From Erysipelothrix anatis (GTDB lineage: Bacteria > Bacillota_I > Bacilli_A > Erysipelotrichales > Erysipelotrichaceae), in contig NZ_WTSX01000001.1 of the NCBI RefSeq assembly GCF_009828745.1, positions 186,001 to 250,000 of the forward strand: a DNA stretch of 64,000 nt, given 5' to 3'. A program made the position numbers and the translations under genes. The notes below the pieces were generated by a model. The model was not told where the DNA came from, ran no database searches, and saw nothing but the letters and a program-made list of their open reading frames with translations. Positions 19,255-43,698 of the stretch are shown here, piece after piece; position 1 is the first letter of the stretch, and every line of letters starts with the position of its first letter.

Positions 19255-19743
19255 TTAATTAGTAACTGCTTCCTCAAATCCACAATCCAATTCAGCTCTA
19301 ACTTCAAAATCAGTTTTGCCAAATGGTGCTTTCGGTAAGATAACAGCACGTGTATTATTTACATCACAAATAGTATCTGTTTTATTGTTCTTGAAACCTG
19401 CAATAACAGCTTCATTTTGGGAGTCATTGTAACGACCCAAGTTATCTAAATTAATCTTAATTCCAGTTTCTTGAAATTTTTCAAGAAACGTTGTTTTTTC
19501 TTCATCGGTTTTGCCGTCCGTGACATTATCATAATAGAATGATTCATAGAAATCTGATCCCATTTTGATTAGATCCGCTTCAAGCGCATCCTTCCCTTTG
19601 GCTTGTTTGCCCATAAATTTGTAGATGGAAAAACCTCCAACTACGAGAAGTAGTACTGCAATTACAGTGATTGCAATTTTCTGAAACTTGTTACTCTTTT
19701 TGCTCATTTCAATTTTATTCTCATTGCTATTTTCGTTACTCAT
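19255..19743 (-). CDS. Small membrane-anchored protein of the fibre operon (unknown function)
   Basis: A 162-residue protein with a short Asn/Glu-rich cytoplasmic start, one membrane segment (about residues 22-44, IAITVIAVLLLVVGGFSIY) and an outside domain of about 115 residues. That domain has two cysteines (in DTICDVNN and ELDCGFEE) that could form a disulfide. I do not recognise the family. It follows the 823-residue anchor gene by 9 bases and ends the operon at a terminator, so it is probably co-expressed with the fibre proteins. It could help fold, export or hold the anchor. That role is only inference from position. Confidence 0.75.
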   Translation of the reverse strand: MSNENSNENKIEMSKKSNKFQKIAITVIAVLLLVVGGFSIYKFMGKQAKGKDALEADLIKMGSDFYESFYYDNVTDGKTDEEKTTFLEKFQETGIKINLDNLGRYNDSQNEAVIAGFKNNKTDTICDVNNTRAVILPKAPFGKTDFEVRAELDCGFEEAVTN

Positions 19744-19752
19744 TGTATTCTC

Positions 19753-22224
19753 CTATTGTTTTGAATTACTAGCACCTGGATTCGAACTGTTGTAATATTC
19801 TCTCTTTCGCGTAACTACCAATATAATAATTACAGAAATGAGGACTACAATTCCTGAACCTAACCAAATAAATGCTGGGTGTATTGATATATTTGATGAC
19901 GGAGACGCCTCACGATTTACCTCCACAACATAGGTGCTCATCACACCATCTGCACCAGTCGCATGAACTTTAATATAATTCATACCTGGATACAGTTTTT
20001 GGTTTCCAGATATATTTACACTTGTATTTCCAAATTTTGGTGTTGCCGTTACTGCTAGGCTTGTAACGGAGTTTTCAACACTCATCGTGTAGTATAACAC
20101 ATCTTCTTGGAATCCAGGATTGATTGCGTAAGCTCCTACACTTAAAGCAGAAAGTTTACCACTAGTTTCTGCGGTTCCCTTCATGACATCAATTGAAATT
20201 GAGCGCTCTGACTGATCTGCTGCAATCACTTTTATAGTTACGATATTATGACCAGGTTTTAAATTATTTGCACCTTCGATTACAATTCTTGAATTTGGAT
20301 CTTCACTAATGACATTTAGATTCAAGTTAACGATTTCTTTTCCAACAGTTGCTTGATAGTGTGTCACATCACGACTAAACGCAGGCACTAAATTAAGACC
20401 TTCTATAGCACTAATATGATTGTTTGTAGAAACATTTACAGTGTTGTTAGCTCCTGGAGTACCATTTCCTGAATTACCATTATTTCCGGCATTACCACTG
20501 TTGTTGCCAGGGTTGGAACCGTTATTACCGTTGTTGCCGGTGTTACCACCATTGCTACCGGTACTACCGCTGTTGTTTCCAGTGTTGCCAGTATTGCCTC
20601 CGTTGTTTCCAGTGTTGCCACCATTGTTACCAGTATTACCACCGTTGTTTCCAGTGTTACCACCATTGTTTCCAGTGTTACCACCATTGTTTCCAGTGTT
20701 GCCACCATTATTTCCAGTATTGCCACCATTGTTTCCAGTGTTGCCACCATTGTTTCCAGTGTTGCCTCCGTTGTTGCCGTTGTTTCCATCAGTTCCTGGG
20801 TCACCTTTGACTTCTCGATTAACAACAATAGTGTAGGTATCTCGAACACCTTCTTTTGAAAGAATCTCTACGGTAATGGTATTCTTTCCTTCTTTTAACA
20901 CTTGAACCCCTTCACCTGAGATAATTCTACTTTCTTTATCTGCAAGGGTTGGTAATATCGTCACAATCTCAACCGATTTATCAACATTGACAGTATACGA
21001 TTTTATATCGGATTTAAAAATTGGATTAAGCGGTAACGCTGCGTCGGCATTAAATACTTCAAGATTGATGAGTGCGTCTTTTTTAATCGGATTTGTTGGG
21101 TCAGTTGGCTTCTCTTTTGTAATTTCAACTGTATAAGTTCGACGCGTACCATCTTCTGCTTCTACAATCACTTTGATCAAGTTTATACCTTCTTTAAGAT
21201 CATGTGTGCCATTTCCAGAAATAAGTTTTGCTTTAGCATCTACGGGGACTGCTTTAATATCTACAGTCGACGTCGTTGCAGAGACCGTTGCTTTGTAGTC
21301 AAAGACATCTGACTTAAAAGTTGGGGTTAAAACGACAGGTTTTTGATTGTCTGTGACCAGTAGTGACGACAGTTGAATGTTCGATGATTTATCATTTGGA
21401 TTTTTCCCTTTGATAATTTTCACTGTATACGTTGAAGTGGAATCATCTTCTGCTTTGACAACAATATCAATCAGATTTTCTCCATCTTTGAGTTGATGAT
21501 TACCTGTTCCAGATAAGATTGTTCCGTTTGCATCATCTACAAGCGCCGAAATATCAATGGTATCAACATCTTGGCCAACCGTAATCGTGTATTCTTTATG
21601 TTTCGGATCAAAAGCTGGATTAAGTGGAATTACGGATTCCCCATTCTTAATTTCTAACCGCGCCAAACTACTGTTATTAGATTGTTCGCTTGGAACTTCA
21701 GGGTCTCCAATTGTCAGGGTTGCACCTTCAACCATTGCATTTTGCTCGTTAAAGTTAGCGTCTGCAACGGATGCATTTTCCAGTGTTACAGCAGTATCGC
21801 CGTCTGGAGCACCTGCGAGGACTTCAAAAGCAACCTCAAATAAAACTACATCACTTTTTTGTGCGAGCGACGGTGGAGTATCATCGTAGCCTACAAAACG
21901 CAATGTACCTGCTGAAGGTGTGCTTGAAAACGCCCAACCTTTAATGCTATTCTTCGATTCAACATACGATAATACGGATGGATCATATTTTAGTGTTCCA
22001 GAGTAGCCATCAACACCGCTTTTGAGTAATTCCGTATGATTGACTTGAATCTCAACTGTAATCTGCTGACCCCGACTTACCTTCTGTGTCGAAGGTAAGA
22101 CAGTCAACTTAGGACTATTAGCAGATAATGGCATGACCAAATGCATGGTTATCATGGTCACTACCATGAATAGAACGGCAATGACCTTAATTTTTTTTCT
22201 AAACATTGTTGCTATTTTTCTCAT
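19753..22224 (-). CDS. Membrane-anchored cohesin protein with cadherin-like repeats (fibre anchor)
   Basis: An 823-residue surface protein. Order: signal peptide (1-35); cohesin domain (about 36-175) with VSRGQQITVEIQVNHTELL, GYSGTLKYDPSVLSYVESKN and VVLFEVAFEVLAGAPDGDTA; three cadherin-like beta-sandwich repeats (about 180-475); an Asn/Gly linker built on GNNGGNT units (about 475-595); two more repeats (about 600-775); and a C-terminal membrane helix (SGIVVLISVIIILVV) with a short charged tail. There is no LPxTG motif, so anchoring is by the membrane helix. GAGGAT precedes the ATG, which overlaps the upstream stop (ATGA). Cohesins bind dockerins, and the two upstream genes each end in one, so it probably holds the fibre at the cell. 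Binding is inferred. Confidence 0.88.
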   Translation of the reverse strand: MRKIATMFRKKIKVIAVLFMVVTMITMHLVMPLSANSPKLTVLPSTQKVSRGQQITVEIQVNHTELLKSGVDGYSGTLKYDPSVLSYVESKNSIKGWAFSSTPSAGTLRFVGYDDTPPSLAQKSDVVLFEVAFEVLAGAPDGDTAVTLENASVADANFNEQNAMVEGATLTIGDPEVPSEQSNNSSLARLEIKNGESVIPLNPAFDPKHKEYTITVGQDVDTIDISALVDDANGTILSGTGNHQLKDGENLIDIVVKAEDDSTSTYTVKIIKGKNPNDKSSNIQLSSLLVTDNQKPVVLTPTFKSDVFDYKATVSATTSTVDIKAVPVDAKAKLISGNGTHDLKEGINLIKVIVEAEDGTRRTYTVEITKEKPTDPTNPIKKDALINLEVFNADAALPLNPIFKSDIKSYTVNVDKSVEIVTILPTLADKESRIISGEGVQVLKEGKNTITVEILSKEGVRDTYTIVVNREVKGDPGTDGNNGNNGGNTGNNGGNTGNNGGNTGNNGGNTGNNGGNTGNNGGNTGNNGGNTGNNGGNTGNNGGNTGNTGNNSGSTGSNGGNTGNNGNNGSNPGNNSGNAGNNGNSGNGTPGANNTVNVSTNNHISAIEGLNLVPAFSRDVTHYQATVGKEIVNLNLNVISEDPNSRIVIEGANNLKPGHNIVTIKVIAADQSERSISIDVMKGTAETSGKLSALSVGAYAINPGFQEDVLYYTMSVENSVTSLAVTATPKFGNTSVNISGNQKLYPGMNYIKVHATGADGVMSTYVVEVNREASPSSNISIHPAFIWLGSGIVVLISVIIILVVTRKREYYNSSNPGASNSKQ
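20443..20805. repeat. Asn/Gly-coding tandem repeat (linker minisatellite)
   Basis: About 120 codons of Gly, Asn, Thr and Ser. Within 20580-20780 there are about nine near-identical 21-base units (minus strand GGAAACAATGGTGGCAACAC and close variants), coding GNNGGNT. Such arrays change copy number by slippage and recombination. Confidence 0.85.
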
Positions 22225-25200
22225 TGTTCATCCTCGTTCTTTTCAAATATATTTTTACTTCCGAGAATATGACTTCGGATACCAATTAAATCAGCGACAC
22301 CAACTTTTTGATCATTGTTGACATCTGCTGCCAGTAATTGCCAATCGGTAAGTGTTCCGCCAAGAACATAGCTACGGACGCTAATAATATCAGCAACTCC
22401 AATACGTCCGTCACCGTTCACATCCCCTTTAACAATAATTGTTTTCTCATCGTACTCTTGATTGTCCACAACTAGTTTGATAATAACGCCACTTCCAACT
22501 AAATCTGTATCTTCAAGTTTTGCACCATTGCGATAGAAGACCAAGTGTTCTTGAGGATTCGTCATCTGTTGTTTCACATCGAGAACCGATTGGTTATCAT
22601 GAATTGTTTGAATATGCTTGGGTTCAACTGTATGAATATCGGACTTAAGTTTCATTTCTAGAATTGTTACAGCAATCGTGTAAATTCTGTCTTCCATATC
22701 TTCACGATGAACTGTAATTGAAATGGTATGGTCACCAGCGGGCAAGTTCTCGTTGCCTGAAATTGAGACCTTCGCCATTGGGTCCTCAGATATTGCCACA
22801 ACAGGTAGCGTTAATGGTTCATTATTGATGATTGATGTTGTGTAATTTTGAGTCATCTTATCGAATGGTTGATCCATTGTATGCCCCTCTAATTGAAGGT
22901 ATGAAAGATGATTACTTGACGTATTTCCACGATTAACAACAACGAAATATGTTGCATTCTCGTTTCGTTCACGTGTTACATGAATTTCGAAAATGTTAAC
23001 ACCTAACTTCAGTGTTTTAGTTCCCGTTCCTTCAACCGAAGCTCCCTCAAAGGCTGATGTAGCATTAATCTCTAAAGTATCGACACTGCCATCAACATCG
23101 ACATAGTACTGGCGGACACCTGTGCTGAATGATGGAGACAATGTTCCCTCATTTACAGTTAAGGTATCTAAACCAAAATTTGAACTTTGTGCTCTGTTTA
23201 CAAACAGTGTGTAAGTTACCTTTGTTCCATCTTCAGCAACTACTTCAACTTCAATTGTGTTACGCCCTGGTTTAAGAGAGTGTTTTCCAAGATTTTTAAT
23301 AACTTGCTTCTCGTCTGTTTTTGTACCGAATACTTCGATAGTTTCTACACTTTCATCAACATCGAGGTTGTACGCAGTTTTGTTAATGTCAAAGACTGGA
23401 TCTAATTTACCAACATCTGTCCATAGATTACTGATTGCAGTATTTGACGAAGCTTTTTTATGAAACATGATTGTATAGATTCGTGGCAAGTTGTCTTTTC
23501 CTACGACACGAATTTCATGTGAGTATGGGAATGATACAACTGGGATTGTCCCAAGACCGGTTATAGTTGCATTGTTCGTGGCTGTTGCTTCGAATGTAAA
23601 CTCACTATCACCATCTTGAACATCAATCAGATATGTATTTCCGAACTTTGAAAATTGTGGTGAGAGATTGTACGTGCCGTGATTGTTGCCACTTACAAGC
23701 AGCGATTCGAGATAATTTTGAGATGGTGCTTGACGGTTAACATGAATGCGGTACGTATTTTTGTCACCATTTTGCGCGGTCACGATAACGTTTACTACAT
23801 GATTGTTTCCGACTTCAATATTTGACTGATTTTCCACACTCACATGACTATTTACAGGATTCGTATAAAGCGGTGTTACTTGATTAATTTCATTTGGAAT
23901 CGTCAAGTAATAATCTGTTTGGAGGGGATTAAATTTAGGACTAATGACCCCTTCTTGAACACTTAAACTATCCAGGAGCGCAGTATTATCTGCATCACGT
24001 GCGAGTGTTATCGTATATGTTTGCTGATTTCCTTGTGATGCGGTGACGGTAATTGTAATAACGTCCTTATCAGCAAATGATTTTGGATAGGTAATTTCAA
24101 CGCGTGCATTGTTATCTTCTGGGATCGCTGTAACATTTGCTGTATCACGGTTTATCGTGTAAGCATAAGAGAGGGTTTCTTTATTGAACCCTACAACATC
24201 AATACCATCGACTTGAAGCAATTTTAAATTCGCGTTTTCGGATAATGATTTGTCCACAGCGACATTGTAAGTCTTTGTAATATTGAAAGAATCCGTTACT
24301 TTGATGATGAAGCGTTTGATTGCACCATCATCGACAGGATTGCTTACTTCGTACGTTGCCTCCTGATCTTGTGGTTTAGCCGCAATCATGATAGCTTCAA
24401 GATCTATCGATGCAGGCACAGTGTACTCATACTGTTGGGTTTGTTCATTCCACAATGCTTTCCAACGTTGACTTCCATATACAACTTCAACTGTGTCTAG
24501 GGCTGTCTTGTCTTTCACTTTGTGGACACGAACGATGTAGTCCGTTTTGTAGTTTCCATTAGTAACTGTAATTTTTATTGGGGTTATGCCATCTAATAGT
24601 GCAACATCTTTATAAGTCCCACTTAGTGTGGCTTTAGGGTCCTCTGTCGTTGGATTCAGTGAAATGGTATGTGTTGTTTGTGGAACATAAACATCGTATT
24701 CAAGAGTACCCGGTTCGAATGGTGGTAGAATGTCAGCACTATCGGATGTAAGTGATGCCAATCTTGAGGATAAACCTCGATCAACATCTATTTGATAAGT
24801 ACGACGGTCTCCGTTTTTAGCCTTAACCTTGATATCGACAGTACGTGGAAGACTCGAAACTGGAATAGATTCCAACTCACTTGCATTTTCCACAGTCGCA
24901 CCAAAGCGTTCATCAAGTGTGTAGTAAACTCTGAAGGTTTCCACTCCTGGGAAAATAGAAGCTTGATACGTCATCACTTCTGGATTAAATTCTGGTTCGA
25001 TGAGTCCTTGATTTTGCCCAATATGCAAGTCACTTAGGAAATTGTAACTTTCCTTTCGTATCTTGAATGTGTAGGTTAGTGTTGCTTTCGTTTCGGATTC
25101 CGTTTGAATTTCATAAAGAACTTCGTCATAACCTTCGATTTTTACGATTCCATTTGGTTTAACTCGTGTTTTAGGATGCATAGCTTCCACTTTAAAATCA

Positions 25201-28200
25201 CTTAAATCCCAGAAATCTTTAGAGCTTGGAATATCGATGATATATTCATAAATATCTGGATTGAATGCAGGCTCAATTTTATTTTTTGCATCATTGAGAT
25301 TCAATGTTTTTAATCGTGCATCGATAGATGGTGTTCGGGTGTACTCAATGTGGTACTGTTGCTTCGTAATTCCATCTTGAGCTTTAGCCTCGAACGAAAT
25401 ACGGTGCGTCCCAGGTTCGAGCTCATACGTACGATTAATATTACCGCTGAGCGTAACTGAGGCGTGATTTGGCGTCGCCTTGAGTTCATGCGTAAAATCT
25501 ATCGCATCAAAAGGTTCACTAATTCTGTAAACTTGACTTCCGTCCCAATCAGTACTTGGTTTGGATAAATCAATAACATGTGATCCTACCTTTAAATCAA
25601 GCAATCCCAGTTTTCGTATTACAACGATTTGATACTGCTGCACAGGTACCGATTGATCTTCTGCCTGAACTTGAATACTGAATACATTTTTACCTGGTTT
25701 AAGTTCAAATTCACCGAGTCCTTGTTGGACTTGTGCATTTGCATTTGTTGGAGTCGCGTGAATTGTAATTGTATCTACATCCGCTGGCACATCTAAAACT
25801 TCAAAGAGGTCGTACGGTTCATCATGAATCGAATGATTGAGTTTTAATGGTAGCGTTTCTCCATTAGATTTATATCCGTCAATTGTTAATGATTCCAACG
25901 ATACGTCTTTTGACAACGAACGCGTAAAGGTAAACTGATATGTATTCACCAATGTCGTTACAGAGTCAGTCAACGTGATTGGTAATTGCTTAGTAGCAAT
26001 ACCTTTCATTGTAAATGTATACTCAAGTGGCTCAGCAATATTTGTTGCAACATCCGGTACAATTTCAAAGGTTATAGATGTATCTTGATGTGCAAGATAA
26101 TCATCGAGATTAATCGTAAATGCAGTCTCTCCTGCGTAAGCTGGAACCGTTTTTCCATTAATCTTAAGTGATTCAATTTGAGGTGGCATCACATCTGGAT
26201 AAACAACGCGGATATGATAGGTACCTGCCAGTTCTCCGCTCTGTGTTGAAACATCAAACGTGTAGATATTGTCTTGGGTTCGCGAAAGTTTGAGGGGATC
26301 GTTATGATAGTTTGAAATCACATACCCGCTCTCGATTGCAATTGGGGCCAACGAAATATCTTTCTTACTGAATTCTTTCATATTGATTGGAACATGTACG
26401 ACATAATAGTAGTTTCCAGGAATCGGATTCGTAATACTATCATCGTTCTCAATGCGTTCAACTTTATCCCCAGGAACGAAGCCATCAACGCCAATGTCCA
26501 TCACTTTTCGAGATACCTCAAGTGTGTAAACTTTAGTTGTTTTACCATCATGTGCTGTGACAGTAACTGTAATGTAGTTTTTACCAACCTTTAGATTTGA
26601 TGTTCCATCAATTTGTACTGTTGCATTTGCATTTTCTGCAAGTGCAGCTACATTTAAGTGCGTCACTCCATTCTCAACATCTTCAAGAGTATAGCTAAGT
26701 ACATCCTTATCCAAGCCTTTAAAATCTTCATTATTGATTGTGAGAGACTTCAGGTTTGCATTATGATCTAATGTCCTTGTGATTGTCAGGGTGTACGTTT
26801 GTTTCTTTCCTGACTCAGAGACTACGTCAACTAGTATCGTATTCACACCATAGTCTAAGACAACATCTTTCTGGTTAACGACTTCTCCATTGATTAGAAG
26901 TATTGCACCATCATGTTGCTTTTCGGCGAAGATATTTAGCGATTCTTGAGATGTATCCACAGTTTGCGTATACACATTGTCTTTAATGCTCTTCAAAATG
27001 TCCTTACCATCTATTTGAAGCGCCGTTAGATCATTGGCATCGGATTTAGCTCGATTAATGATTATTGTATAAACTTGCTGTGACGTTCCATCTTCTGAAG
27101 AAACCGTAATAGTTGCTTGGGTTGCTTCCTTCTCGACATTTACTGTATGCGGAATCGTTTCTAGAATCACACCATTAGCCTTGGCTGTTGCGTCAAAGAT
27201 GACTGCATTAATATCCGCACCAACATTTAATGTATATGCGTTTGTATGTTCAGAAAATTCGGGAGTCAATGTTCCAACATTACTTGATAAAGTTTTGAGT
27301 GCTGCTTCTGAAGATTTTGCCCGTATCACTGAAAAGATATACTGCGATTGTAAACTACCCTCAACATTGGAAACTATCTTAAAAGTAAATGTATTTAAAC
27401 CCGTACTCAAATCGATGGCATCCCCACCTTCAATTCGCGCATTTTCAGGTATTGTAAAATCCATGTTATCGAGACCGAATGTTGTGACTGCGTTGGGCAC
27501 GTGAACTGTATATCGGTATATCGCAGTATTATCGCTAATAATCTTATCTTTGGCGATACCGTCACCTTGACCATCCGGATCTAAAGGTTTATTATCCGGC
27601 CCCATTGAATCAGGTTTTATCGTTTCAATACCGCTATCTGGTTTAGGAGTGAAAGGATTGTCTGTTCCGCCCGTTTCATCTGTAATCTCCGTGGCAGTGT
27701 TTGCTTCCATAGTGACCTGAATTGTGTATGTTTTAATACTTTCATTCTCTGCTACAACTTGTATTTCAAACGAATTCAGTCCAGTAACTAATGCATGTGT
27801 TCCGAGCATGCTTTGATTTACAATTTGGGAAGCATTATCTGGATTTACTGATGCTGTGATTGTGATGGTCTCATTCTTACTATACGGAACTGAACCTAAA
27901 TCATAATACGTCGTATTTGCATCAAAAGCAGTAATCATCTCCATATTCTTAATAAGTGCATTCAGCGAATGTAAATCATTGTTCTTTTTTCTATCTCGGA
28001 TTACCGTAATCGTATATTTGGCAGGAGTTCCGTCTTGAGCACGTACTTCCAGGGTTGTTTTATTTGAACCTGGTATCAGCTCCAGTAATCCCGAAAATGT
28101 ATTAAGGTTTTCGCTTGTGTTTTTGAGTGTATCACTGTAGACACGAGCAGCATCAAAGTTAGTCGTAGCTTCAATTAAAACTTCTGACACTGCATTATCA

Positions 28201-29549: not shown

Positions 29550-29550
29550 C

Positions 29551-32500: not shown

Positions 32501-35500
32501 CGAATTGTTAAATGATTTTCACCATGTTTAACACCAGAGACAACTAAATTACCTTCATCATCTTGTACACTTGGATATCCAAGAACTTCATACGTTGCTT
32601 TCGCATCTTCTGGAGTCACAGTTAATGTCACAACATCGTGAATGTCAGAAATATAGGTCGTATAATCTGTACGATTTTTATCGAACTCTGGACTCAGTAA
32701 TCCTTCACTGAGTGCGAGCGCAGACAAGTAGTTGTTGTAGGACGCTGAACGCATAACTTTAACTGTATAAATTCGTGACGACCCGTCGGGTGATGCAACT
32801 GTGAGCGGAATTGAATTTTCACCTAGCGCGAGATCAATCCATCCCCCTCCGGTCACCTTCGCGACTGGACGATTTAATGCCACACCCTTAACGGAAATCC
32901 GTTCGACATTTTCCGGAACCCAAACGGTGTATTCAGTCGTTTCCATATCAAATTGAGGCATGAGTTCACCATGACTTAGTTGAATCGTTTGCATTCGATT
33001 ATCGTATGCACGATGAATCGTGACAGTCCGTTTCTCAATGTCACCATTTTGTGCTGTAACACTGATATCAAAGACATTTGCACCAAAATCAAGTGCATAC
33101 TCACCGATTCCCTCAACATTTGCTAAAGGATCCATTGATGTCGCCTTTAGGTTTATATGGTCAACCCCCATGTCGACCGTGTAGGATAGATTTTTCTCTG
33201 TCAGATCAAATGTATGACTTATATCGCCATGCTCCGCACTTAATGAAGCAAGTGATGTATCGTTCGATAACTTTTTGTCCACACTGACATAGTAGGTTTT
33301 AGTCTTCGTTCGATCTTCACTCGTAACGACGATCGTTACCATATTCTTTCCATTCAGTAACGGATCATTACCGCGAATAACGACACGAGCATTCGGAGAA
33401 ACTGGTGTAGCATTGATACCCAGTTTAGAATCATGTTCCCCAACACTGATAGAATAGTGTTGCTTTTGTGGATCAAATGAACCCTCATTGAAATTCAGAT
33501 TTTCAGGCCCTGAAGGTGTTTCTCTAAACGGTATTAGACCAATTAGGGACGCATCATCTGACATTTCTTTAAAAATTGAAATCGTATAAATTGCGACATT
33601 TCCTTCTTGTGCTTCAGTTGCCATCAGTTTAACTGTATTCATACCCGGTTTGAGTTTTACTTCGACACCATTTGTTGCCTTATTACCAGTATCGTTGGGT
33701 GATGATCCTGCTACTAAGGTTGTTTCAACTTGGGGTACACCTTGAACCAATACTTTATCCGTAGCAGACGATACTTTAACGGTGTAGTTCATCATTGCGC
33801 GATTAAATTTAGGTGAAAAATCTTCGCCTTTACTGATAATGACCCCATCTTCACTCACGGTAATTGTCTGAAGATAATTGTTGTAACGCGGCTCACGTAA
33901 AACATGGATGACGTAATCTTTAGTCTCCCCATTTTCCGCAATCCCACGAACAATTACGTCATTATTTCCTTCAGTAAGATAATCATTGTTAAGTACCTCA
34001 TAACGCGCTTTGGGATCCGTTGTTTCTGCTTCAATACCCAATTTGTCAAACTCTGATGCAACGGTTGTGCGATACGTTGTTACGTCTGATTCGAATGGGA
34101 GCTCGATACTTGGATTTGTTATCTTTAAGGATTTGAGACTTGCATCATCACTGCCTGCACGCATTATTTTAATGTTAAAGATACGAGACGTTCCGAAAGG
34201 TGAAACAACTTCAACTTGTATGTCATTACGTCCGATTTTAAGCGGAATGTTATTTATATCAAGAGGATTGTTGAATCGATCATATACGTTAATAGTTTGA
34301 GATTCATGGCCTTTCTTAACAACAAGTCCCACGCGATCTGTTTCGCGAGCAACCTGTCCTTCAAATTGAATGGCAGCATTGTTATAAGATGGATCTAAGG
34401 CACCATTTTGTGAGTCAGTTAGTGTTACATCTTCAAGATCAAGTGTGCGCGATAAGTTACGTTTAATAATAAGCGTATAATTACGTACATCACCATTCTC
34501 AGCCTCGACACCAATTGTCACCTTCGTTGCATCTCCGATCAACTCTCTATCTCCAATCGATGAAAGAATTTTCGCTTTAGGATCTTGTGTAAATGCACGA
34601 ATAACAACAGACGTTGTTCCCGCTTCTACTCCAACCTCGTACTCAGAGACATCTGGGTTAAACGGAATTTTAAAGATACTTCCGTCAACTTCAATCGAAG
34701 ATAACTTGTTATTACGGGAACGAACATAAGTCACATTAAAGGTGTATGTAGTGCTTGTTGTTCCATCCTCACTTGTAACTTTTATTTTAAATGGTTTCAC
34801 AGTTCCAACTTCGAGGTTGATTGCTTCTTTTGGCTCATAGCTTACGACTGCTTTATCATCAGCTGTAACAAGTTTCTTGATATAAGTGTGGTCAAATGTT
34901 TTCACATCACCACTCATCTCCAAGTCATAAGTGAATACGTTTGGATTGAACGATCGATTCAAGGTTCCCGACTCAAACTGTAATTCTTTAATCGTAGAAT
35001 CATTCCCGGAACTTCGGTCAATCAGGATACGATAAGTTTCAATCGTATAACCGTCTACTGCCCGTACCCTTAACTCATATATATTTTCATTTGTAGTACT
35101 CAACACTAAATCCCCACTCGTCTCAACACGAGCATTAGGGTCTACTGTTTCAAATTTAATATCACTTGCATAGAGTACTTTTTTACTGTTTGGAACCTTG
35201 AGATGGTATGTAAAAATCGATGCGTCAAAGTTCTCTTCGAATTCATAGCCAGTAACAGCGAGTTTTTTTAATCTCGTTTCGTCTGTTTGTGGTCTTGTAA
35301 CATTAATTGTGTACGTCTTCGTTTCACCATTCTCTGCAGTTACTACAATTTCACGAACATTTTTTCCAGGTTCCAACAATTGACGTGTATGACCTGTAAC
35401 CTTGGCATTACGATCTTCTGTATTCACATTAAAGGATAAGTAGTTCGTCGTACTTTCGGTCGTTAAGTTGTAGACGTCTTTGGTGTAATTAAAGTTCGGT

Positions 35501-38500
35501 ATTAGCGAACCATTACTTGGCGTAATGTTTGTAAGTGCATTATTCGTTGAGGCCGGTCGATTCACGACAACCGTATATGTTTTCTGAATACCAGAATCAC
35601 TAGTTACAACGATTGGTAGTCTATTTTCTCCTACATGAAGTTTTTGTTGACCATCACCTGTAACAGTTGCGGTTTTACTTGTCGCCGAAATATTGATACT
35701 TTCAGTTCCTACAGGAACCTCTTCATTCACGGTATAAACGTCAGTTTGGGGATCAAATGTCGGCGAATATGCCATATTTTCACCCTTGAGCTGAATCGAC
35801 AAGTCCGTGAGTTGGTTATCATTTGAATGAGCACGATTCACAACAACGTGATATTTTCGCTCAATCTTGGTTCGTGAACTAACTGTAATTACAAAGCGAT
35901 TTTCCCCATACATAAGTCCGAATTTTTCGAGACCAGACACGGTTGATGTTGATAACGTTGCTTCGCCATCAAATGTAATTGTTTCTTGATCATAAGGAAC
36001 TTCAACACGATATTCCATGATGCCTTTGTAGAATTGTGGAGTTATCAACTCAGCATCAACCGATAGATACTCAAGGAAGTTATTGGCATAGATTTGACGA
36101 TACACTTCCAATACATACGTTTCGACTTTATCTTTAGCACTTGAAGTTACTTCTATTTCAACAACATTACGTCCTTCAATAAAGTTTTCATTACCACGGA
36201 CCACAACTTTCGCCTTTGGATCAATTTTCTCAAAATCCATTTGTAAGGATGTCATTTCATTATCCACAGTCAACATGTAATGGGTTCTCGCTGGATCAAA
36301 TCCATTTTCAAATGGGTAATTTTGAACCTTAAGTTGTTTCAGTTTTGCACTGTTAATTGGATCACGTGTCACTGAATACTTAAACGTCACAACTTCTCCA
36401 TTCTCTGCTGTGACATTCATGATGATTGTATTTTCACCAACCGTTAACGGGTATTCTTTAAGACCAGAAACCGTTGCTTTTTCATGATTTGCATGAGCGT
36501 CCAATTTAAACGTCTCTACTTCATAAGGGAAACGGTATGTATAACTACGGACGTCATTTGAGAAATCCTCCTGATGTTGATCATTCACAAATACATCTGT
36601 CAATGTATTGTCATCTGCGCCTTCTCGATGAATGACTACTGTGTATGTTTTTCGTAGACCAGACTCGCTGGCCACATTGATATCTACGTAGTTGTCACCA
36701 ACATTGAGTGTTTGAACTTGTCCATACTGAGCTGTAGCATTTAGATCAGATGTGATTGCGTCAACATTAACTTGCGTTACGTCATGTCCAACATTCGCCT
36801 TATAAACTGTTTGATTGCCAGAGAAACTAGGATTCAAACGAACACCACTAATTGTTAAGCTACGAAGATTTGCATTTTTTGACGGTTCTTTATTGATTGT
36901 CAACGTGTAATCTTCCACTGTAATACGGTCTTCCGCTGTTACACGAACGATGACCACATTTTTAGTACCAAATACAAAACTGTGGTTACCAATAATTTCG
37001 ACTGTCGCTTTATTGTGTGTCGGTGTTGCACTGATTCCTAACTGGGTATTTTCAGTCGTTCCGGTGTAAGTGAATATATTCGGTTTAAAATTGATGTTGT
37101 TGTTCTTTAATCCTGACACATTCAGTCGACTCAATGTGGCATCACTGGATGGTGCACGATAAACCAAAATCTGCGTATCTCGTATAATATTGTTTTTTGC
37201 TGTTGCACGGATATTGATTAAATTATTACCAACTTCTAATGGATGACTCCCAACACCCGAAAGTACGACATCTGCTGTTTTTGTTTTTGCATTAACGTTG
37301 AATGTCGCGATGTCATTGCCAACATGAACACGATAAAATTGGGTATCCGGACTAAATCCAGGTATCAATTTTCCAGATGATACCGTCAAATCTGATAAAT
37401 GAATTGTTTCGCTTGGTGCATCTTGTACATATACATTTAACGTATAGTCTTTAAAAGTATCTTTTGCCTCCGAGTGAACTCGTACCGTTACTTTATTTGC
37501 CCCTGTTTTCAGTGCCTCATTTCCTAAAACACTGACCTGTGCCTCGGGGTGTTGTGTTGCTGTTTCTAGGTTAATTCGCGATGTCCCTTTTGGTACCATG
37601 ACATCATACTCAATGACATCTGGTTTAAACCCGCGGTTTAAAGATCCCTCATGAACAATCAAAGTTTCTAAATCAGCATTTGTAGAAGCATCCCGAACAA
37701 CATTTAGAACGTAAGCTACACTTGCGCCACTATCTGCAGTAGATTGAATCGTAATTGTATTCGATCCAACTTCTAATTGCGTCTCACCAGTTCCCTGAAT
37801 CGTAGTCGAGGTAACCTTCGGACTTGCATTGACTGTAATCGTTTCTACCTCATTACCAACATTAATCTTATATGCTGTCGTTTGAGCATCGAATGACGGA
37901 TCAAATGTTGCAGCAGGTGTTGTTGTAATTGAGGATAGTGATGGATCACTGTTTTTCGCCATATTGACATGAACTGTATATGTTTTAGGTTCATAGTTTT
38001 CAGCTGTTGCAACGATGCTGATGGTGTTATCACCTGGAACCAAATAAACTTTACCTACTCCACTTACACGTGTGAGTGGGTGTTGTGCTGTAGCGGCAAG
38101 GTTGAGAGCTTCTTCTGTATACGGTACATCCACAGAATAGGTTTCTACCTCTGGATCAAATGCTTCAATTTCAAACATACTGCTCGTGATACTACTTAGA
38201 TTATTGTTTGTCGCGAATGGTTTTGTAACTGTAATTACATATTGGCTAATACTTCCATCTTCTGCTGTTACCCGGACATTCACGGTATTGTCTCCTGGAT
38301 AAAAACGAGACGTATTTCCAGTTATAGAATATGAGGCAAATTCACTTTGAAGTTTTACCTCAATTTCCGGCTTCACAACGGTATCTGTAACACTAAGTGT
38401 TTGACGAAGTGCGTCCGATGAAAACTCGGTCATCTCAACACCAGAAATTTTAAGACTCGCTATTTTCGAATTACTTGATTGTTTTCGAACGACATTAAGA

Positions 38501-41500
38501 GTGTAAGTTTGTACAGTTCCATCTTGGGCTTTTGTTTGAATGTTGATAACATTTGAGCCTACACTTAAGGTATGCTTTCCTGCTCCAGAAACTGTCGTTT
38601 CTTCGGCTTCGGCTAATGCCTCAATTTCGACAAAATCGATAGCATTATCAACTGTTACCACATAATTTGAAATTACTTTTTGGAAAGACGGGGACAATGG
38701 CAGGATTGTATCGTTATGCTTCACAGTTAACTGTTTTAAGAAGGTATTTGCATTATCCTCACGGTAAATATTTAAAGTATAATCTTTCGTCTCCCCATTA
38801 TTTGCTGTTACCCGATAAATAACTTTATTTAACCCTAAATCTAAATCATCTTTATCTTTTAAAATGGTAACTTTAGCTTCTGGATCCATCGTTTGATAGT
38901 GGACATCGATTTCCGAGAATTTTGTGTACTCATGAGGTACTGAGACGTAGTACTCAGTGATGTCTGGGTTAAACTCTAAATCCCGTTTCGGCGCGTTAAG
39001 TGCAAAGGCTTCAAAATCTGCATTACCTGTCATATCACGATCAATGGCGAACGTATATGCATGGTAGCTTGACCCATCCTCACTTAAAACATCAATGTAT
39101 TGCGTGTTGTCAGGGCCTGGTTGTAATTCTAATACCCCTTCTCCTGTAACGACTTGGTATGCATGATCCTTTATGACCGAAAACTCAAGTGAACGAATAC
39201 GAGATGGTACGATCATCGTATAATGACCACCGTCCGAATTTAAATCATTATGTGGATCAAATGTTGGTGATAACTTACAGTACTCGTCAGATACACCACA
39301 AAGTGAAGGTATTAACCCATTAATCACAACATCTTTGGGAAGTGAATTTTCAGACGCATCACGATTCACTTTAATAGTCGTAATCCGGATTGTTCCATCT
39401 TCAGCTGTTACTGGAATTTTGAAAGTCGACGTTCCCGCAGGAATGTCAAATGTTCCATTTCCGGATACTGATGCATATGGATCCATCGGAATTCCTTTAA
39501 TCGTTAGTTCTGTGTCATCTTTACCTAATTGAAGCGTGTAGTCTGTCTCTTCTGTTACAAATGTAGGACTTAATGTTCCTTTGCTTACTTCTAGACGCGA
39601 TAGATGATTATCTTCCGAAGCTTTTTTAAGTGCCGTTACGCGAACAAATCCATTGCCTTTATTACCTTGTGTAAATCCACTTTCTTTATTCGGCATATTT
39701 TGATTTCCACTTAGCAATACCGTATCTTTTAGCATGAATCGTGTTGCAGGTGCATAACCGGACGGTTTGTATGATTTATCAGTATAAACATAGCCCGATC
39801 CACCACCACCTCCACGATCATCATCACGTGAATAATCCGGATAGACACCACCACCGCCGTACCAGCCGCCACCGCCGGCACCACCACGACCATCTTTGTA
39901 GTAACTACCCGCTCCACCGACACCAAAACTTGCATAGTTTCCAGCACTAGATTGGGTTCCGCCTTGACCACCCGAACCATATGATTCTGTTCGAGATACG
40001 CCGTTGATACCACCTCCGGCACCTCCTGGTTTGTTACTTGCACCAACAGACCCACCGCCACCGGCAACTAAAATACGATTAAAGAGTGAATCTGATTCTA
40101 CACGAATATCAGATGCACCACCACCATAGACATTAGACGTCCCTGATGATGCACCACCATTCCATCCCCGCGCTAGCGAATTTCCTGCACCACCAACGTA
40201 GATTATGACTTCTTCACCTTTTTTTAGAGGTACGATACCCGTTGCATATCCGCCCAGTCCACCTGAACTTCCGCCTCGGTTTCCACCTTCAGCTCCCCAA
40301 GCTTCTAGTTGATAGTTTCCTGTATAAGGGGCTGTAAAATATTGGGCTTTACCTGTATAAACAAAATCTGTAGCAATGCTTTGGGCGCCATCTCCAGCAT
40401 CACCGCGGTTAACGTTCAAGGTGTAAACCTGTTGCCCAATATTTGGTTCGTCAACAGTAATTAGTACTGTATTTTTTCCTTTACGCAAATACCCATTACC
40501 GCTGATGCTCACCGTTGCCTCATGATCAAATGGAATTGCTGTGATATTCAGCGAAACGGTAGCATTCGGAATTTGCACATCGTAGTTGAAAACTTCCGGA
40601 TTAAATTCAAACGTTAGTTCATCTAACTCAAGTGTTTTAAGTCGGTTTGAATCTTCAATTTTTGGTGTAATTCGATATACGTTTTGTTTGTTCCCGTCCT
40701 CAGATGTAACATTAATTTCTAGTGTTTTGCCGTTTTCAATAATGTGATCACCCAATCCCGTTATAGTTTGTTTGGGACGATTTGTGGTTGCCGTAATTGC
40801 AACAGCACGATCTGCATCATAGGGAAGTTCTAAGACATAGTCGTAGATATTTTCTTTGAAGCCTTCTAGTACTACATCGTTAACTGATATAGCATATGCA
40901 TCCGCATTATTTGATGGGTTTCTTTGTACATTAAACGTATAGACATTCAAGGTTCCATCCTGACCTGTTACCGTAATTGGGTATGCTGTAGTTCCTGGTT
41001 GAATCGTAATCTCTTGATCATTATCCCAATTATGAACAGCATTTCGATCTGTTGTTGTTGCTGCGATTTTTACTTTGGTCGTATCAGCATCAATCGCAAC
41101 ATTGTAATTTTTAATTGAGGGTGTGAACGGCACATCAAAAGTACCCTCACTGAAGGTCACAGAACTGAGAGTCGCATCTGATGAGTATTTATTCAATAAA
41201 GAAATCCGTACAAATCCGTCTCCTTCATTTCCTTCGATTGTATGCCCTTCATGACCTGGCATTGATTGGGTTCCATCGAGTAGTTTATCATTATGCATCA
41301 TGTATTTTTGAGAAGGTCGATAGTTAGTTGGCTTATATGACTTTTCACTGTATACATAACCAGATCCACCAGCACCAGATCCTGTCGAATTGCGATAGTT
41401 AGCAGCGGCACCGCCACCATACCAACCGCCACCACCAGCTCCGGCGCCATAATCTATTGAGCTACCGCTTCCAATTCCACCGCCAGCACCCGTTCCAAAG

Positions 41501-43434
41501 TTTCCAGACATTCCACCGCCACCAGATGCACTTTGACTTGCACCCGTTCCGAATTGTCCAGTAGAGCCAGTTCCATTAATTCCAACTAAGCCACCTCCGG
41601 CGCCACCAGTGTATCCCCTAACACTTGATCCACCACCACCAGCAACTAGAATACGGTTGAAAAGACCGGTTCCGCCGACACGAATGTCAGAAGCCCCGCC
41701 TCCGTACGATCCACCACTAACGTTGGTCCATGCACTTCCACCACCATTGTATCCGCGACTTGTAGCATTGCCAGCACCACCAACGGTGACATACATCTCA
41801 GTTCCCGCTTCAAGGAAAACATCTCCAACAGCGTAACCACCTTTACCACCAGTACCATTTTTCTGGTCGGTGCCACCTTCACCACCCCACGCTTCAAATT
41901 TATACACACCGGTATAAGGAACTTTGAAACGTTGAATATTACCAGTATAACTAAACTCCATATCACGATTTCGTGTTGCTTTTATAATATAGACTGTGCT
42001 TTCAAGACCTGGTTTTGAAACAGTAATGCGAATTGTATTTTCACCCGGCAACAGTTCTTCTTCTGCAGCCCCTTCGATTTTGACAGATGCTTCTGAATCA
42101 AAAGTTTGAAACTTAAAATTAATCCCACCATACAAGTACGACTTAAACTCATATTCATACACATTAGGCTTAAATGCTTCCGTAAATGCATGAGTGTACT
42201 CATCACTATAAAGGCTATATAGTTTAGTACTTCCAGAACGTTGGAAGTTCAGCGTATATTCTTGGGTATGCGTTCCATCAGCTGAAATGACGGTAACCTT
42301 ATGTTGTAAGTTGTGATATTTAAGTTCGACGTTTCCGTCGCCCACAATTTTTTGATTGTTGTGACGTTTATCAACTGTAATTTCATCTTTCGCTATGTAT
42401 TCGCTGGCAATTGGAATTGTATACTCTGTTACCTCCGGATCAAAGCCATCAATGACTTTTCCATTAATACGAATCCCTTCAAGATTCGCTGATGATTGGG
42501 TATTTTCTCCAAAGTAAGTGATTCGTGCATATCCCGAATTTGAATGTCCTATTTCACGAACACCATCGGGTCCAAAGAAACTCACATTTCCTGATAAGAG
42601 TTCAGTATTCGTGAATTCATATTTAGCATCGGGGGCATAGTTTGTTGGACGGTATGACTTATTGATTTTGATACCATCTTTAATCGTATCACCAGTTAAG
42701 ACATAACCTGACCCACCAGCTCCAGATCCTGTCGAATTGCGATAGTTGGAAGCACTTCCGCCACCAAACCAGCCACCACCACCGGCACCGGCTCCATAAT
42801 CTACAGTGCTGCCAGTAGATTGGCCTCCACTTGCACCAGCTCCAAAGCTTCCGGATAATCCACCGCCACCAGATGCGCTTTGACTTGCACCTGTTCCGAA
42901 TTGTCCAGTAGCACCCGTTCCACTAGCACCAATGACGCCACCTCCGTAGCCACCAGTATAGTTGCGGACACTTGATCCTCCGCCACCAGCAACTAGAATA
43001 CGGTTAAAATAGCCCGTTCCACCGACTCGAATATCGGTAGCACCGCCACCGTAAGATCCACCACTAACGTTGGTCCAGGCTTTTCCACCACCATTGTAAC
43101 CTTGGGCGATACTGTCACCAAAACCACCAACCGTCACAAAAAGTTCTTCACCGGCTTCGAGATAGACTTCACCAGATGTATAGCCACCTTTTCCACCCGA
43201 TCCTTGATGGCTGTCGGTACCTCCTTCGGCACCCCAAGCTTCAATTTTATACTTCCCTGCTTTTGGAACCTTAAAGGTTTCCATAGTACCAGTGAAATCG
43301 AAATTATATATATTTTGATTTCCTACAGCAAAAACCTGCCATACCGTAAAGATACTTAAAGTAGTCAGTACGAGTGCCGCAGTTAAAAGAATGATTCTAT
43401 TCCGCGGTTTATTCTTATATTGTGTCATATTCAT
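29551..43434 (-). CDS. 4627-residue giant dockerin protein with glycine-rich heads and 39 cadherin-like repeats
   Basis: One uninterrupted frame of 13.9 kb. Order: signal peptide (about 1-36, LLTAALVLTTLSIFTVWQVFA); glycine-rich domain 1 (about 43-305); two cadherin-like beta-sandwich repeats; glycine-rich domain 2 (about 490-750); three repeats; glycine-rich domain 3 (about 1020-1270); 34 more repeats (about 1275-4385); a bacterial Ig-like (Big_2) domain (about 4388-4470, LILNVGEVKGIKATVNPEDA); a small beta domain (about 4480-4555); and a type-I dockerin (about 4556-4623) with loops GDANGDGIVNVLDE and ANINHDEVVNVLDQ. The first position of the second loop is Asn, not Asp. The glycine-rich domains have the pattern YKIEAWGAEGG, ATDIRVGG, RILVAGGGGS. 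GAGGG precedes the ATG; a second ATG two codons later is possible. It is probably the distal fibre subunit. Confidence 0.88.
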   Translation of the reverse strand: MNMTQYKNKPRNRIILLTAALVLTTLSIFTVWQVFAVGNQNIYNFDFTGTMETFKVPKAGKYKIEAWGAEGGTDSHQGSGGKGGYTSGEVYLEAGEELFVTVGGFGDSIAQGYNGGGKAWTNVSGGSYGGGATDIRVGGTGYFNRILVAGGGGSSVRNYTGGYGGGVIGASGTGATGQFGTGASQSASGGGGLSGSFGAGASGGQSTGSTVDYGAGAGGGGWFGGGSASNYRNSTGSGAGGSGYVLTGDTIKDGIKINKSYRPTNYAPDAKYEFTNTELLSGNVSFFGPDGVREIGHSNSGYARITYFGENTQSSANLEGIRINGKVIDGFDPEVTEYTIPIASEYIAKDEITVDKRHNNQKIVGDGNVELKYHNLQHKVTVISADGTHTQEYTLNFQRSGSTKLYSLYSDEYTHAFTEAFKPNVYEYEFKSYLYGGINFKFQTFDSEASVKIEGAAEEELLPGENTIRITVSKPGLESTVYIIKATRNRDMEFSYTGNIQRFKVPYTGVYKFEAWGGEGGTDQKNGTGGKGGYAVGDVFLEAGTEMYVTVGGAGNATSRGYNGGGSAWTNVSGGSYGGGASDIRVGGTGLFNRILVAGGGGSSVRGYTGGAGGGLVGINGTGSTGQFGTGASQSASGGGGMSGNFGTGAGGGIGSGSSIDYGAGAGGGGWYGGGAAANYRNSTGSGAGGSGYVYSEKSYKPTNYRPSQKYMMHNDKLLDGTQSMPGHEGHTIEGNEGDGFVRISLLNKYSSDATLSSVTFSEGTFDVPFTPSIKNYNVAIDADTTKVKIAATTTDRNAVHNWDNDQEITIQPGTTAYPITVTGQDGTLNVYTFNVQRNPSNNADAYAISVNDVVLEGFKENIYDYVLELPYDADRAVAITATTNRPKQTITGLGDHIIENGKTLEINVTSEDGNKQNVYRITPKIEDSNRLKTLELDELTFEFNPEVFNYDVQIPNATVSLNITAIPFDHEATVSISGNGYLRKGKNTVLITVDEPNIGQQVYTLNVNRGDAGDGAQSIATDFVYTGKAQYFTAPYTGNYQLEAWGAEGGNRGGSSGGLGGYATGIVPLKKGEEVIIYVGGAGNSLARGWNGGASSGTSNVYGGGASDIRVESDSLFNRILVAGGGGSVGASNKPGGAGGGINGVSRTESYGSGGQGGTQSSAGNYASFGVGGAGSYYKDGRGGAGGGGWYGGGGVYPDYSRDDDRGGGGGSGYVYTDKSYKPSGYAPATRFMLKDTVLLSGNQNMPNKESGFTQGNKGNGFVRVTALKKASEDNHLSRLEVSKGTLSPTFVTEETDYTLQLGKDDTELTIKGIPMDPYASVSGNGTFDIPAGTSTFKIPVTAEDGTIRITTIKVNRDASENSLPKDVVINGLIPSLCGVSDEYCKLSPTFDPHNDLNSDGGHYTMIVPSRIRSLEFSVIKDHAYQVVTGEGVLELQPGPDNTQYIDVLSEDGSSYHAYTFAIDRDMTGNADFEAFALNAPKRDLEFNPDITEYYVSVPHEYTKFSEIDVHYQTMDPEAKVTILKDKDDLDLGLNKVIYRVTANNGETKDYTLNIYREDNANTFLKQLTVKHNDTILPLSPSFQKVISNYVVTVDNAIDFVEIEALAEAEETTVSGAGKHTLSVGSNVINIQTKAQDGTVQTYTLNVVRKQSSNSKIASLKISGVEMTEFSSDALRQTLSVTDTVVKPEIEVKLQSEFASYSITGNTSRFYPGDNTVNVRVTAEDGSISQYVITVTKPFATNNNLSSITSSMFEIEAFDPEVETYSVDVPYTEEALNLAATAQHPLTRVSGVGKVYLVPGDNTISIVATAENYEPKTYTVHVNMAKNSDPSLSSITTTPAATFDPSFDAQTTAYKINVGNEVETITVNASPKVTSTTIQGTGETQLEVGSNTITIQSTADSGASVAYVLNVVRDASTNADLETLIVHEGSLNRGFKPDVIEYDVMVPKGTSRINLETATQHPEAQVSVLGNEALKTGANKVTVRVHSEAKDTFKDYTLNVYVQDAPSETIHLSDLTVSSGKLIPGFSPDTQFYRVHVGNDIATFNVNAKTKTADVVLSGVGSHPLEVGNNLINIRATAKNNIIRDTQILVYRAPSSDATLSRLNVSGLKNNNINFKPNIFTYTGTTENTQLGISATPTHNKATVEIIGNHSFVFGTKNVVIVRVTAEDRITVEDYTLTINKEPSKNANLRSLTISGVRLNPSFSGNQTVYKANVGHDVTQVNVDAITSDLNATAQYGQVQTLNVGDNYVDINVASESGLRKTYTVVIHREGADDNTLTDVFVNDQHQEDFSNDVRSYTYRFPYEVETFKLDAHANHEKATVSGLKEYPLTVGENTIIMNVTAENGEVVTFKYSVTRDPINSAKLKQLKVQNYPFENGFDPARTHYMLTVDNEMTSLQMDFEKIDPKAKVVVRGNENFIEGRNVVEIEVTSSAKDKVETYVLEVYRQIYANNFLEYLSVDAELITPQFYKGIMEYRVEVPYDQETITFDGEATLSTSTVSGLEKFGLMYGENRFVITVSSRTKIERKYHVVVNRAHSNDNQLTDLSIQLKGENMAYSPTFDPQTDVYTVNEEVPVGTESINISATSKTATVTGDGQQKLHVGENRLPIVVTSDSGIQKTYTVVVNRPASTNNALTNITPSNGSLIPNFNYTKDVYNLTTESTTNYLSFNVNTEDRNAKVTGHTRQLLEPGKNVREIVVTAENGETKTYTINVTRPQTDETRLKKLAVTGYEFEENFDASIFTYHLKVPNSKKVLYASDIKFETVDPNARVETSGDLVLSTTNENIYELRVRAVDGYTIETYRILIDRSSGNDSTIKELQFESGTLNRSFNPNVFTYDLEMSGDVKTFDHTYIKKLVTADDKAVVSYEPKEAINLEVGTVKPFKIKVTSEDGTTSTTYTFNVTYVRSRNNKLSSIEVDGSIFKIPFNPDVSEYEVGVEAGTTSVVIRAFTQDPKAKILSSIGDRELIGDATKVTIGVEAENGDVRNYTLIIKRNLSRTLDLEDVTLTDSQNGALDPSYNNAAIQFEGQVARETDRVGLVVKKGHESQTINVYDRFNNPLDINNIPLKIGRNDIQVEVVSPFGTSRIFNIKIMRAGSDDASLKSLKITNPSIELPFESDVTTYRTTVASEFDKLGIEAETTDPKARYEVLNNDYLTEGNNDVIVRGIAENGETKDYVIHVLREPRYNNYLQTITVSEDGVIISKGEDFSPKFNRAMMNYTVKVSSATDKVLVQGVPQVETTLVAGSSPNDTGNKATNGVEVKLKPGMNTVKLMATEAQEGNVAIYTISIFKEMSDDASLIGLIPFRETPSGPENLNFNEGSFDPQKQHYSISVGEHDSKLGINATPVSPNARVVIRGNDPLLNGKNMVTIVVTSEDRTKTKTYYVSVDKKLSNDTSLASLSAEHGDISHTFDLTEKNLSYTVDMGVDHINLKATSMDPLANVEGIGEYALDFGANVFDISVTAQNGDIEKRTVTIHRAYDNRMQTIQLSHGELMPQFDMETTEYTVWVPENVERISVKGVALNRPVAKVTGGGWIDLALGENSIPLTVASPDGSSRIYTVKVMRSASYNNYLSALALSEGLLSPEFDKNRTDYTTYISDIHDVVTLTVTPEDAKATYEVLGYPSVQDDEGNLVVSGVKHGENHLTIRVTAENGDARDYTLNVIQQESSMFSNRLKSLSVTPSKGIAPSFKPDTTRYVVNVDTSTTEVTIDATKESDDATIISGLGTFPVASGRNSYKVVVQSKDGLLRTYEIIINQALSGDATLSKLSFEEGLLTPIFSKGRKEYALYVANGVSTLTPSITPSALGTKWVITGNGIDAPLGDDNNTVTITTTAANGKSTDTYTVKVYKSSQSSIYLDAITANVGTFKEPFDKTNGGPYTLMVDPNVKSVMIGAKPEDEHAIASIEGVGIVDVSDSAGKNVDIVVTGKSGASMTYTVKIVKAPRNNARLSFMAIQPGKLEPQFSPLRSAYVANISHEQERVEISAKSEDPEAIISGAGIKEVAVGLNEFDVVVTSSNGDVGIYDVDITREAEISSKATLIRFKEALIENPNFDKEIENYALTVPNEVTKLNLDTVILEDPTRSTYEIFGNTNLKVGDNTVKVVVKNSENIPDTVYVFTVNRQIFSSNFLKNLTTNKGHVSPSFDKYINNYDITVPFEVHEMDLIATPEDAKSMISGTGTVRDLEVGVNVHKIVVTSSENVSRTYIVRINRLPNSDNTLHELIVEGGTLGQPFDPQNIGPYVVTVAEGRATVEFKTVLPEGATVVGDGIVEISAGETKHRITVTSQDGNERHYEFVIKRPVAHDASITNIIPQTGVLSPNFAADIRTYYVTVPDSIMEMGFDVETSNAQTTVTGHEVRTIPYGETSFTVVATAENGITQESYTIVVVRERDIRSIDVESATLILNVGEVKGIKATVNPEDATHQGLVWKVSDPEVLSIDQSGVVTALKPGGAMIEISSEKNPGIKTRIGVTVMNLTLSSDSLDVKRIDAMESPVETLKDFVVGSEPSTTVESYKQMFINEQDALKVYDKNGIELTDDSQLVGTGMVLKLEYGETVYDQLVIVVMGDANGDGIVNVLDEGDIMNSILKIVTFDDYQGIAANINHDEVVNVLDQGYITNYILKKISTLNGIGG
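39625..40370 (-). other. Glycine-rich domain 3 coding region
   Basis: This third copy is more diverged than copies 1 and 2. It shares YQLEAWGAEGGNRGG, the DIRV-RILVAGGGGS core and the closing YKPSGYAPATRFMLKDTVLL with them. Confidence 0.7.
41190..41960 (-). repeat. Glycine-rich domain 2 coding region (recent duplicate of domain 1)
   Basis: Long stretches match 42515-43308 almost base for base, for example CAGATCCTGTCGAATTGCGA occurs near 41380 and again near 42725. The proteins share TGQFGTGASQSASGGGG and NYRNSTGSGAGGSGYV. Confidence 0.8.
42515..43308 (-). repeat. Glycine-rich domain 1 coding region
   Basis: First of three glycine-rich (PF12810-like) domains of the giant protein and near-duplicate of domain 2. 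These domains resemble the poly-glycine-helix domain of ALK-type receptors by composition and the conserved ATDIRVGG and RILVAGGGGS core. Confidence 0.75.
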
Positions 43435-43660: not shown

Positions 43661-43693
43661 AAAAAAAAGGTGTTGATTAGATCAACACCTTTT
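43661..43693 (-). terminator. Terminator of the metal ABC transporter operon
   Basis: AAAAGGTGTTGAT (43665-43677) and ATCAACACCTTTT (43681-43693) form a 13-bp stem followed by T on the minus strand, 6 bases after the substrate-binding protein gene. Confidence 0.9.
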
Positions 43694-43698
43694 CATAA

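Follow-up and report, generated by a model that had tools for sequence, protein, structure and literature searches.

A candidate enzyme-free cohesin-dockerin surface fibre encoded by a conserved operon in Erysipelothrix

Organization of the operon and its products

The window, that is, the whole 64,000-nucleotide stretch of DNA analysed here, comes from contig 11 of a 2.19-Mb Erysipelothrix genome (G000) that is close to E. aquatica, with the best segment of one of the proteins described below, the anchor, showing 88% identity to E. aquatica contig NZ_WTSY02000022. It contains three large ORFs arranged head to tail on the minus strand, which encode proteins hereafter referred to as the giant, the adaptor and the anchor, with a fourth, small gene coming last in order (Table 1). 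The giant and adaptor genes are separated by a single nucleotide, and the terminal giant codons, GGA GGA, form the Shine-Dalgarno sequence of the adaptor gene (GGAGGATAAGATG); the adaptor and anchor genes overlap in ATGA. The three genes are thus adjacent and translationally coupled, as stated in a preliminary description of this DNA, and such coupling would favour matched output of the subunits. The same description assigned three genes to a 24-kb operon at 19255-43434; the three are as described, but this range also holds the fourth conserved gene.

Upstream of the operon lie zinc-transport genes (ZnuA, ABC-3 and an ATPase) that end in an intrinsic terminator, and given the position of this terminator, the operon probably constitutes a separate transcription unit. 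The other neighbours are housekeeping genes, namely, those for pyrimidine synthesis, a glycosyltransferase, PTS and LytR-type genes. Base composition carries no signal of horizontal transfer, the G+C content of the operon (0.39-0.42) being similar to that of the genes that follow. No enzymes were found inside the operon or beside it, so that the earlier statement that no glycoside hydrolase is present holds for the operon and its neighbours, but not for the genome, which encodes a GH31 protein and a glucosaminidase, both dockerin-bearing, on other contigs.

The giant consists of a signal sequence, three glycine-rich domains, 39 cadherin-like repeats, a Big_2 domain, an X-like module and a dockerin. 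The glycine-rich domains, which are of the ALK/LTK type, span residues about 40-310, 490-745 and 1037-1269 (the borders of the first two were read by eye) and are interleaved with repeats 1-5. Hence, the glycine-rich heads that had been placed outermost indeed occupy the N-terminal region, but they are not all at the tip. The single sequence of this head yielded no match among solved structures. The adaptor, the only operon protein to combine a cohesin with a dockerin, comprises a signal sequence, a cohesin, 21 cadherin-like repeats, an X-like module and a dockerin; the X-like module preceding the dockerin in both the giant and the adaptor was read by eye. The anchor combines a signal sequence, a cohesin, five repeats split by an Asn/Gly-rich linker, a C-terminal membrane helix (residues about 779-809) and a short tail. 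No LPXTG-type sorting signal was found in these proteins: the giant and the adaptor terminate in dockerins and the anchor in its helix and tail.

The Pfam Cadherin-like model alone recognizes 35, 15 and 5 stretches in the giant, adaptor and anchor, respectively, and a model trained on these repeats recognizes 39, 21 (19 strong and 2 weak) and 5, exactly the numbers (39, about 21 and 5) at which the preliminary description had arrived independently. All 51 Cadherin-like matches detected genome-wide fall within these three proteins.

The fourth protein, conserved alongside the other three genes, has a single membrane helix, at its N-terminus, and a small domain with two cysteines, and no relative was found among solved structures. 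Assignment to FliL was rejected, the NCBIfam match being far under the cut-off and limited to the membrane helix. In other genera of the order, relatives of this gene adjoin other giant surface-protein genes, which encode RCC1/DUF11 or L-type-lectin proteins. The recurrence beside unrelated giant surface-protein genes suggests a helper function, and maybe the family is a common export or assembly helper for such proteins, a role that the fourth protein would probably play here.

Table 1. Coordinates of the operon features in the window and of related loci elsewhere
Feature	Positions or locus	Strand	Evidence or remark
Intrinsic terminator of zinc-transport genes	43664..43694	minus	14-bp stem + T-run; 2 found versus 0.1 expected
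Promoter-like site TAGATA-17-TATAAT	43512..43540	minus	upstream of giant; count of such sites not above chance
Giant gene	29551..43434	minus	4627 aa
Giant, region of three ALK_LTK_GRD glycine-rich domains	39628..43317	minus	Pfam PF12810, 3 stretches, E 1.2e-107
Giant, third ALK_LTK_GRD domain	39628-40326	minus
Giant, 39 cadherin-like beta-sandwich repeats	30283..42483	minus	own repeat model, 39/39 with i-E < 1e-3; PF12733
Giant, Big_2 domain	30067..30270	minus	Pfam 8e-7; PDB profile matches
Giant, C-terminal dockerin	29587..29754	minus	recognition letters VL / xN / K, both halves
Adaptor gene	22221..29549	minus	2442 aa
Adaptor, N-terminal cohesin	28854..29471	minus	Pfam 26.0 bits; AF2 model, Foldseek, VIA Z 11.4
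Adaptor, C-terminal dockerin	22287..22430	minus	recognition letters VA / RS / G, both halves
Anchor gene	19753..22224	minus	823 aa
Anchor, N-terminal cohesin	21739..22092	minus	Pfam 2e-8; PDB 1g1k 4.3e-5
Fourth operon gene	19255..19743	minus	162 aa
Fourth-gene family	L105; L110:2061-2450; L111:2816-3214; L112:9881-10399
Glucosaminidase/membrane-protein pair	L001:1-3165 (G000:C5, about 53-57 kb); L059-L065, L067, L070
GH31 protein	L047:12046-19230 (G000:C10)		~2395 aa
Prophage membrane proteins	L002, L003, L087-L089		104/102 aa
Phage tail proteins	L006:1249-3135; L098

Cohesin and dockerin modules

The N-terminal domain of the anchor is clearly a cohesin by sequence, scoring 35.0 bits against PF00963 (cut-off 24.1), and its profile matches the solved cohesins 1g1k and 2vn5, the best being 1g1k from C. 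cellulolyticum. The N-terminal domain of the adaptor passes the same cut-off when scanned alone and goes unreported in a scan of the whole protein. Its orthologues match PF00963 in four of four cases (best 1e-8), and its profile finds 1aoh at 3e-4. Although the AlphaFold2 model of this domain is of low confidence (mean pLDDT 54, pTM 0.58), all 50 Foldseek matches listed for it are cohesins or cohesin-bearing chains (E 1e-5), and the VIA comparison gives Z 11.4 (rmsd 2.6 over 133 aligned positions), with pilin and antigen I/II domains, whose sandwich is related, close behind at Z 10-11. Sequence and the consistent fold match of the predicted model together identify this domain as a cohesin. The domains that the preliminary description took for cohesin folds are therefore recovered in both proteins by sequence and, for the adaptor, also by predicted fold, as is the combination in the anchor of a cohesin with a C-terminal membrane anchor. 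No further cohesin was detected in the genome, and each of the two proteins carries one.

The giant and adaptor dockerins both consist of tandem 22-residue calcium-loop/helix repeats with the pattern DxNxDGxxxxxD (PF00404, type I). The adaptor dockerin is recognized by Pfam (4e-7), and its profile matches adaptor-scaffoldin and xylanase dockerins at 3e-8. For the giant dockerin, Pfam alone gives a weak match (0.02) and the profile matches solved C. thermocellum dockerins of that same group at 1e-6; thus, the dockerins previously assigned to the ends of both proteins were recovered. The two are dissimilar, with 35% identity here and 33-38% in each of the operon-bearing species, and the adaptor and anchor cohesins are only 17-23% identical within each operon-bearing genome. 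Furthermore, the dockerins differ at what we take to be the classical recognition positions of type I dockerins (10-11, 17-18 and 22, with numbering that starts at the first calcium-loop residue; Table 1). In the diverged operon of another genome, G008, the corresponding letters are LN, xD and Y in the giant dockerin and IA/IN, QS and G/E in the adaptor dockerin. Dual-mode dockerins rest on internal symmetry (PMC5429695), and two dissimilar dockerins, each with identical letters in both halves, fit two separate specificities with dual-mode binding.

Distribution of the operon and other dockerins of the genus

Comparison of the window genome with 12 further Erysipelothrix genomes showed that the four genes occur in this order in 4 of the 13, namely, the window genome, E. 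aquatica (G007), G012 and G008, with the latter three copies being complete or contig-broken. Among these genomes, the cohesins have diverged to 24-33% identity. Every element is kept in G008, where dockerins and cohesins are down to 48-24% identity; a frame change near the end of its giant may be a draft-assembly error. In G012, the giant is encoded by an open frame of 5495 aa and bears no fewer than four glycine-rich domains, and the anchor has three or five repeats depending on the species. Such variation in the numbers of glycine-rich domains and anchor repeats (L031, L033, L034) was observed between species, and the length of the predicted fibre seems to vary as well. The giant dockerin and adaptor cohesin show 53 and 53% identity in G012 and 31 and 24% in G008, and the anchor cohesin drifts as much; over four species, this covariation of the cohesin-dockerin pair is suggestive only.

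The adaptor cohesin profile found no match outside the four operon-bearing genomes among 272 genomes of the family, and no further genus emerged from 392 genomes of the phylum and viral contigs. Cohesins of neighbouring genera (G014, G018 and G035), considered as candidates for further fibre operons, were rejected, as they sit in subtilases, GH31 and BspA-type proteins. In G012, the operon adjoins a gene that we take, from reading it, to be pnp, and the closest counterpart of the window's zinc-transport gene lies far away. From this different setting, we infer that the operon moved or was acquired more than once. In the window genome, it is the GH31 gene that adjoins pnp, the place held by the fibre operon in G012. 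Beyond unrelated mentions, we found no literature on dockerins in Erysipelothrix.

Seven dockerins were detected in the window genome, five of them outside the operon: in the GH31 protein, which also carries F5/8 domains, in a wall glucosaminidase, in two 104-aa membrane proteins of prophage regions and in a phage tail protein (Table 1). In the GH31 protein, a stretch that looks cohesin-like by eye follows the F5/8, fn3 and dockerin domains. The glucosaminidase, with its C-terminal dockerin, is the first gene of a pair found nearly throughout the genus, the second encoding a membrane protein with a variable 95-aa beta (Ig-like) N-domain. Between sister species, the dockerin and the beta domain have been replaced together, with the remainder staying 82-97% identical. 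For instance, identity between the window genome and E. aquatica is 93% for the hydrolase and 97% for the neighbour outside its beta domain, compared to 48% for the dockerin and 29% for the beta domain; between G006 and G002/G009, the respective values are 89 and 84-86%, compared to 39-41 and 29%. Across ten species, the identities of the two domains are correlated after removal of the hydrolase background (partial Mantel r 0.77, permutation p 0.0002, with shared ancestry not fully corrected), and we consider the two swaps between close relatives stronger evidence than the permutation test. The coordinated replacement suggests that the hydrolase dockerin has a partner of its own and need not use the operon cohesins, this partner likely being the receptor-like domain of the neighbour. 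This domain is modelled with very high confidence (pLDDT 96) as an Ig-like fold that resembles cohesins, but not them alone: at Z 10-12, PKD and transglutaminase domains score level with C. perfringens cohesins.

In the prophage membrane proteins, encoded beside late genes, the dockerin is the sole outer part. Its first half belongs to the KSHLxGVR class of the host wall-hydrolase dockerin. Proteins of this kind are encoded by two of this genome's prophages and by a further viral record; such a dockerin could occupy the host receptor. The phage tail proteins are antireceptor-like and carry a dockerin-like insert, which may be only a calcium-binding structural insert. The tail protein N-terminus shares 61% identity with its counterpart in Erysipelothrix phage SE-1, and the same two phage records hold the membrane dockerin. 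It is tempting, if rather doubtful at present, to regard the cohesin-dockerin pairs of Erysipelothrix as a general non-cellulosomal surface code, which would encompass the giant fibre, a hydrolase-receptor cassette swapped between species and its exploitation by prophages through membrane-bound and tail-borne dockerins, for receptor binding and exclusion of rivals.

A proposed surface fibre and related systems

We propose, with a probability of roughly two in three, that the products of the operon assemble into a non-enzymatic surface fibre rooted in the membrane, a chain running from the anchor through the adaptor to the giant. The C-terminal helix of the anchor would fix it in the membrane, with five beta-sandwiches and a flexible linker carrying its cohesin. 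This cohesin would hold the C-terminal dockerin of the adaptor, which would extend 21 beta-sandwiches outward and, through its own, different cohesin, hold the C-terminal dockerin of the giant. The latter would add 39 more sandwiches and end in the region of three ALK-type domains, the likely contact end. The resulting 1:1:1 chain would comprise about 65 sandwiches and, at ~4 nm each, measure roughly 250 nm. Cohesin-dockerin binding would be calcium-dependent, and an adhesive or matrix role is suggested by the glycine-rich domains and the lack of enzymes. Two dockerin codes and two dissimilar cohesins make this pairing the most economical reading of the modules, and the labels 'giant' and 'three-tier' of the preliminary description stand.

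Three other readings were weighed. Being alone in the operon in having both a cohesin and a dockerin, the adaptor could grow head to tail, its cohesin binding the dockerin of another adaptor in a filament of variable length, with the giant docked on the anchor or capping the filament. We consider such a homopolymer unlikely, since two dockerin classes and two dissimilar cohesins most simply match one to one; the giant dockerin and the adaptor cohesin also diverge at similar rates, although divergence is just as large in the anchor cohesin. That the modules are only spacers, calcium-stabilized caps or glycan binders of three independent surface proteins is very improbable: cohesin- and dockerin-like modules do occur outside cellulosomes in many bacteria and archaea, according to the part of PMC9012536 that cites Peer et al. 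(2009), but complementary modules are joined here in one operon and have all been kept through strong divergence in four species.

The dockerin-bearing glucosaminidase and GH31 protein raise the question of whether the operon cohesins serve as a general landing platform for these dockerin proteins, amounting to a small enzyme-display system. This seems quite unlikely, considering that no enzyme is encoded in the operon or adjoining it, that the hydrolase dockerin is present in nearly all Erysipelothrix, including those with no detectable cohesins, and covaries with an N-domain encoded right beside it, and that a dockerin protein of the size of the GH31 protein is also found in G003, a species without the operon. 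The likely separate partner of the wall-hydrolase dockerin further counts in favour of the proposed anchor-adaptor-giant fibre.

Cohesin-dockerin joints are among the strongest known non-covalent protein joints and, to our knowledge, are almost always discussed as parts of enzyme assemblies. If the proposed fibre is real, an enzyme-free, three-level system with a giant repeat cargo would show that such joints evolved into a structural fibre, and would provide a natural case of orthogonal pairs under mechanical load, as well as a surface structure for research on the lesser-known relatives of E. rhusiopathiae. If its partners are as suggested, the exchanged hydrolase cassette would offer a rare experiment of nature in which both members of such a pair change specificity together.

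The closest parallels to the predicted fibre are the anchoring and adaptor scaffoldins of cellulosomes, which likewise form a tiered, cell-bound chain with orthogonal cohesin-dockerin pairs and a monovalent adaptor, binding in the present case being predicted; the X-like module before the dockerin is another shared trait. Monovalent adaptor scaffoldins occur in nature (PMC4959524), and in the XDoc:Coh anchor of R. champanellensis, the joint carries mechanical load (PMC7456326). Unlike cellulosomes, the operon encodes no multi-cohesin scaffoldin (the two cohesins detected in the genome are on separate proteins) and no catalytic or cellulose-binding module, its cargo being a giant repeat protein; Pfam reported no carbohydrate-binding module in the giant, adaptor or anchor. 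As for dockerin-bearing polysaccharide enzymes that might dock on the scaffold, none is encoded in the operon; the GH31 protein and the glucosaminidase are encoded elsewhere in the genome. The amylosome of R. bromii and the mucinolysome of Limousia, both cohesin-dockerin enzyme complexes (PMC12997984), also reach beyond cellulose degradation, but both are enzymatic, whereas the operon fibre would lack enzymes. Anaerobic methanotrophic archaea encode extracellular, non-cellulolytic cohesin-dockerin proteins for which a possible contribution to cell-cell association has been considered (PMC9012536); these differ in their domains and partners and are scaffoldin-like, with up to five cohesins, and archaeal. 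In its long tandem beta-sandwich chain extending from the cell, the proposed fibre resembles RTX adhesins (PMC7493085) and sortase-built pili. However, RTX adhesins are single polypeptides and sortase pili are covalent polymers, whereas the Erysipelothrix structure would consist of three polypeptides connected by predicted non-covalent joints and rooted by a membrane helix.
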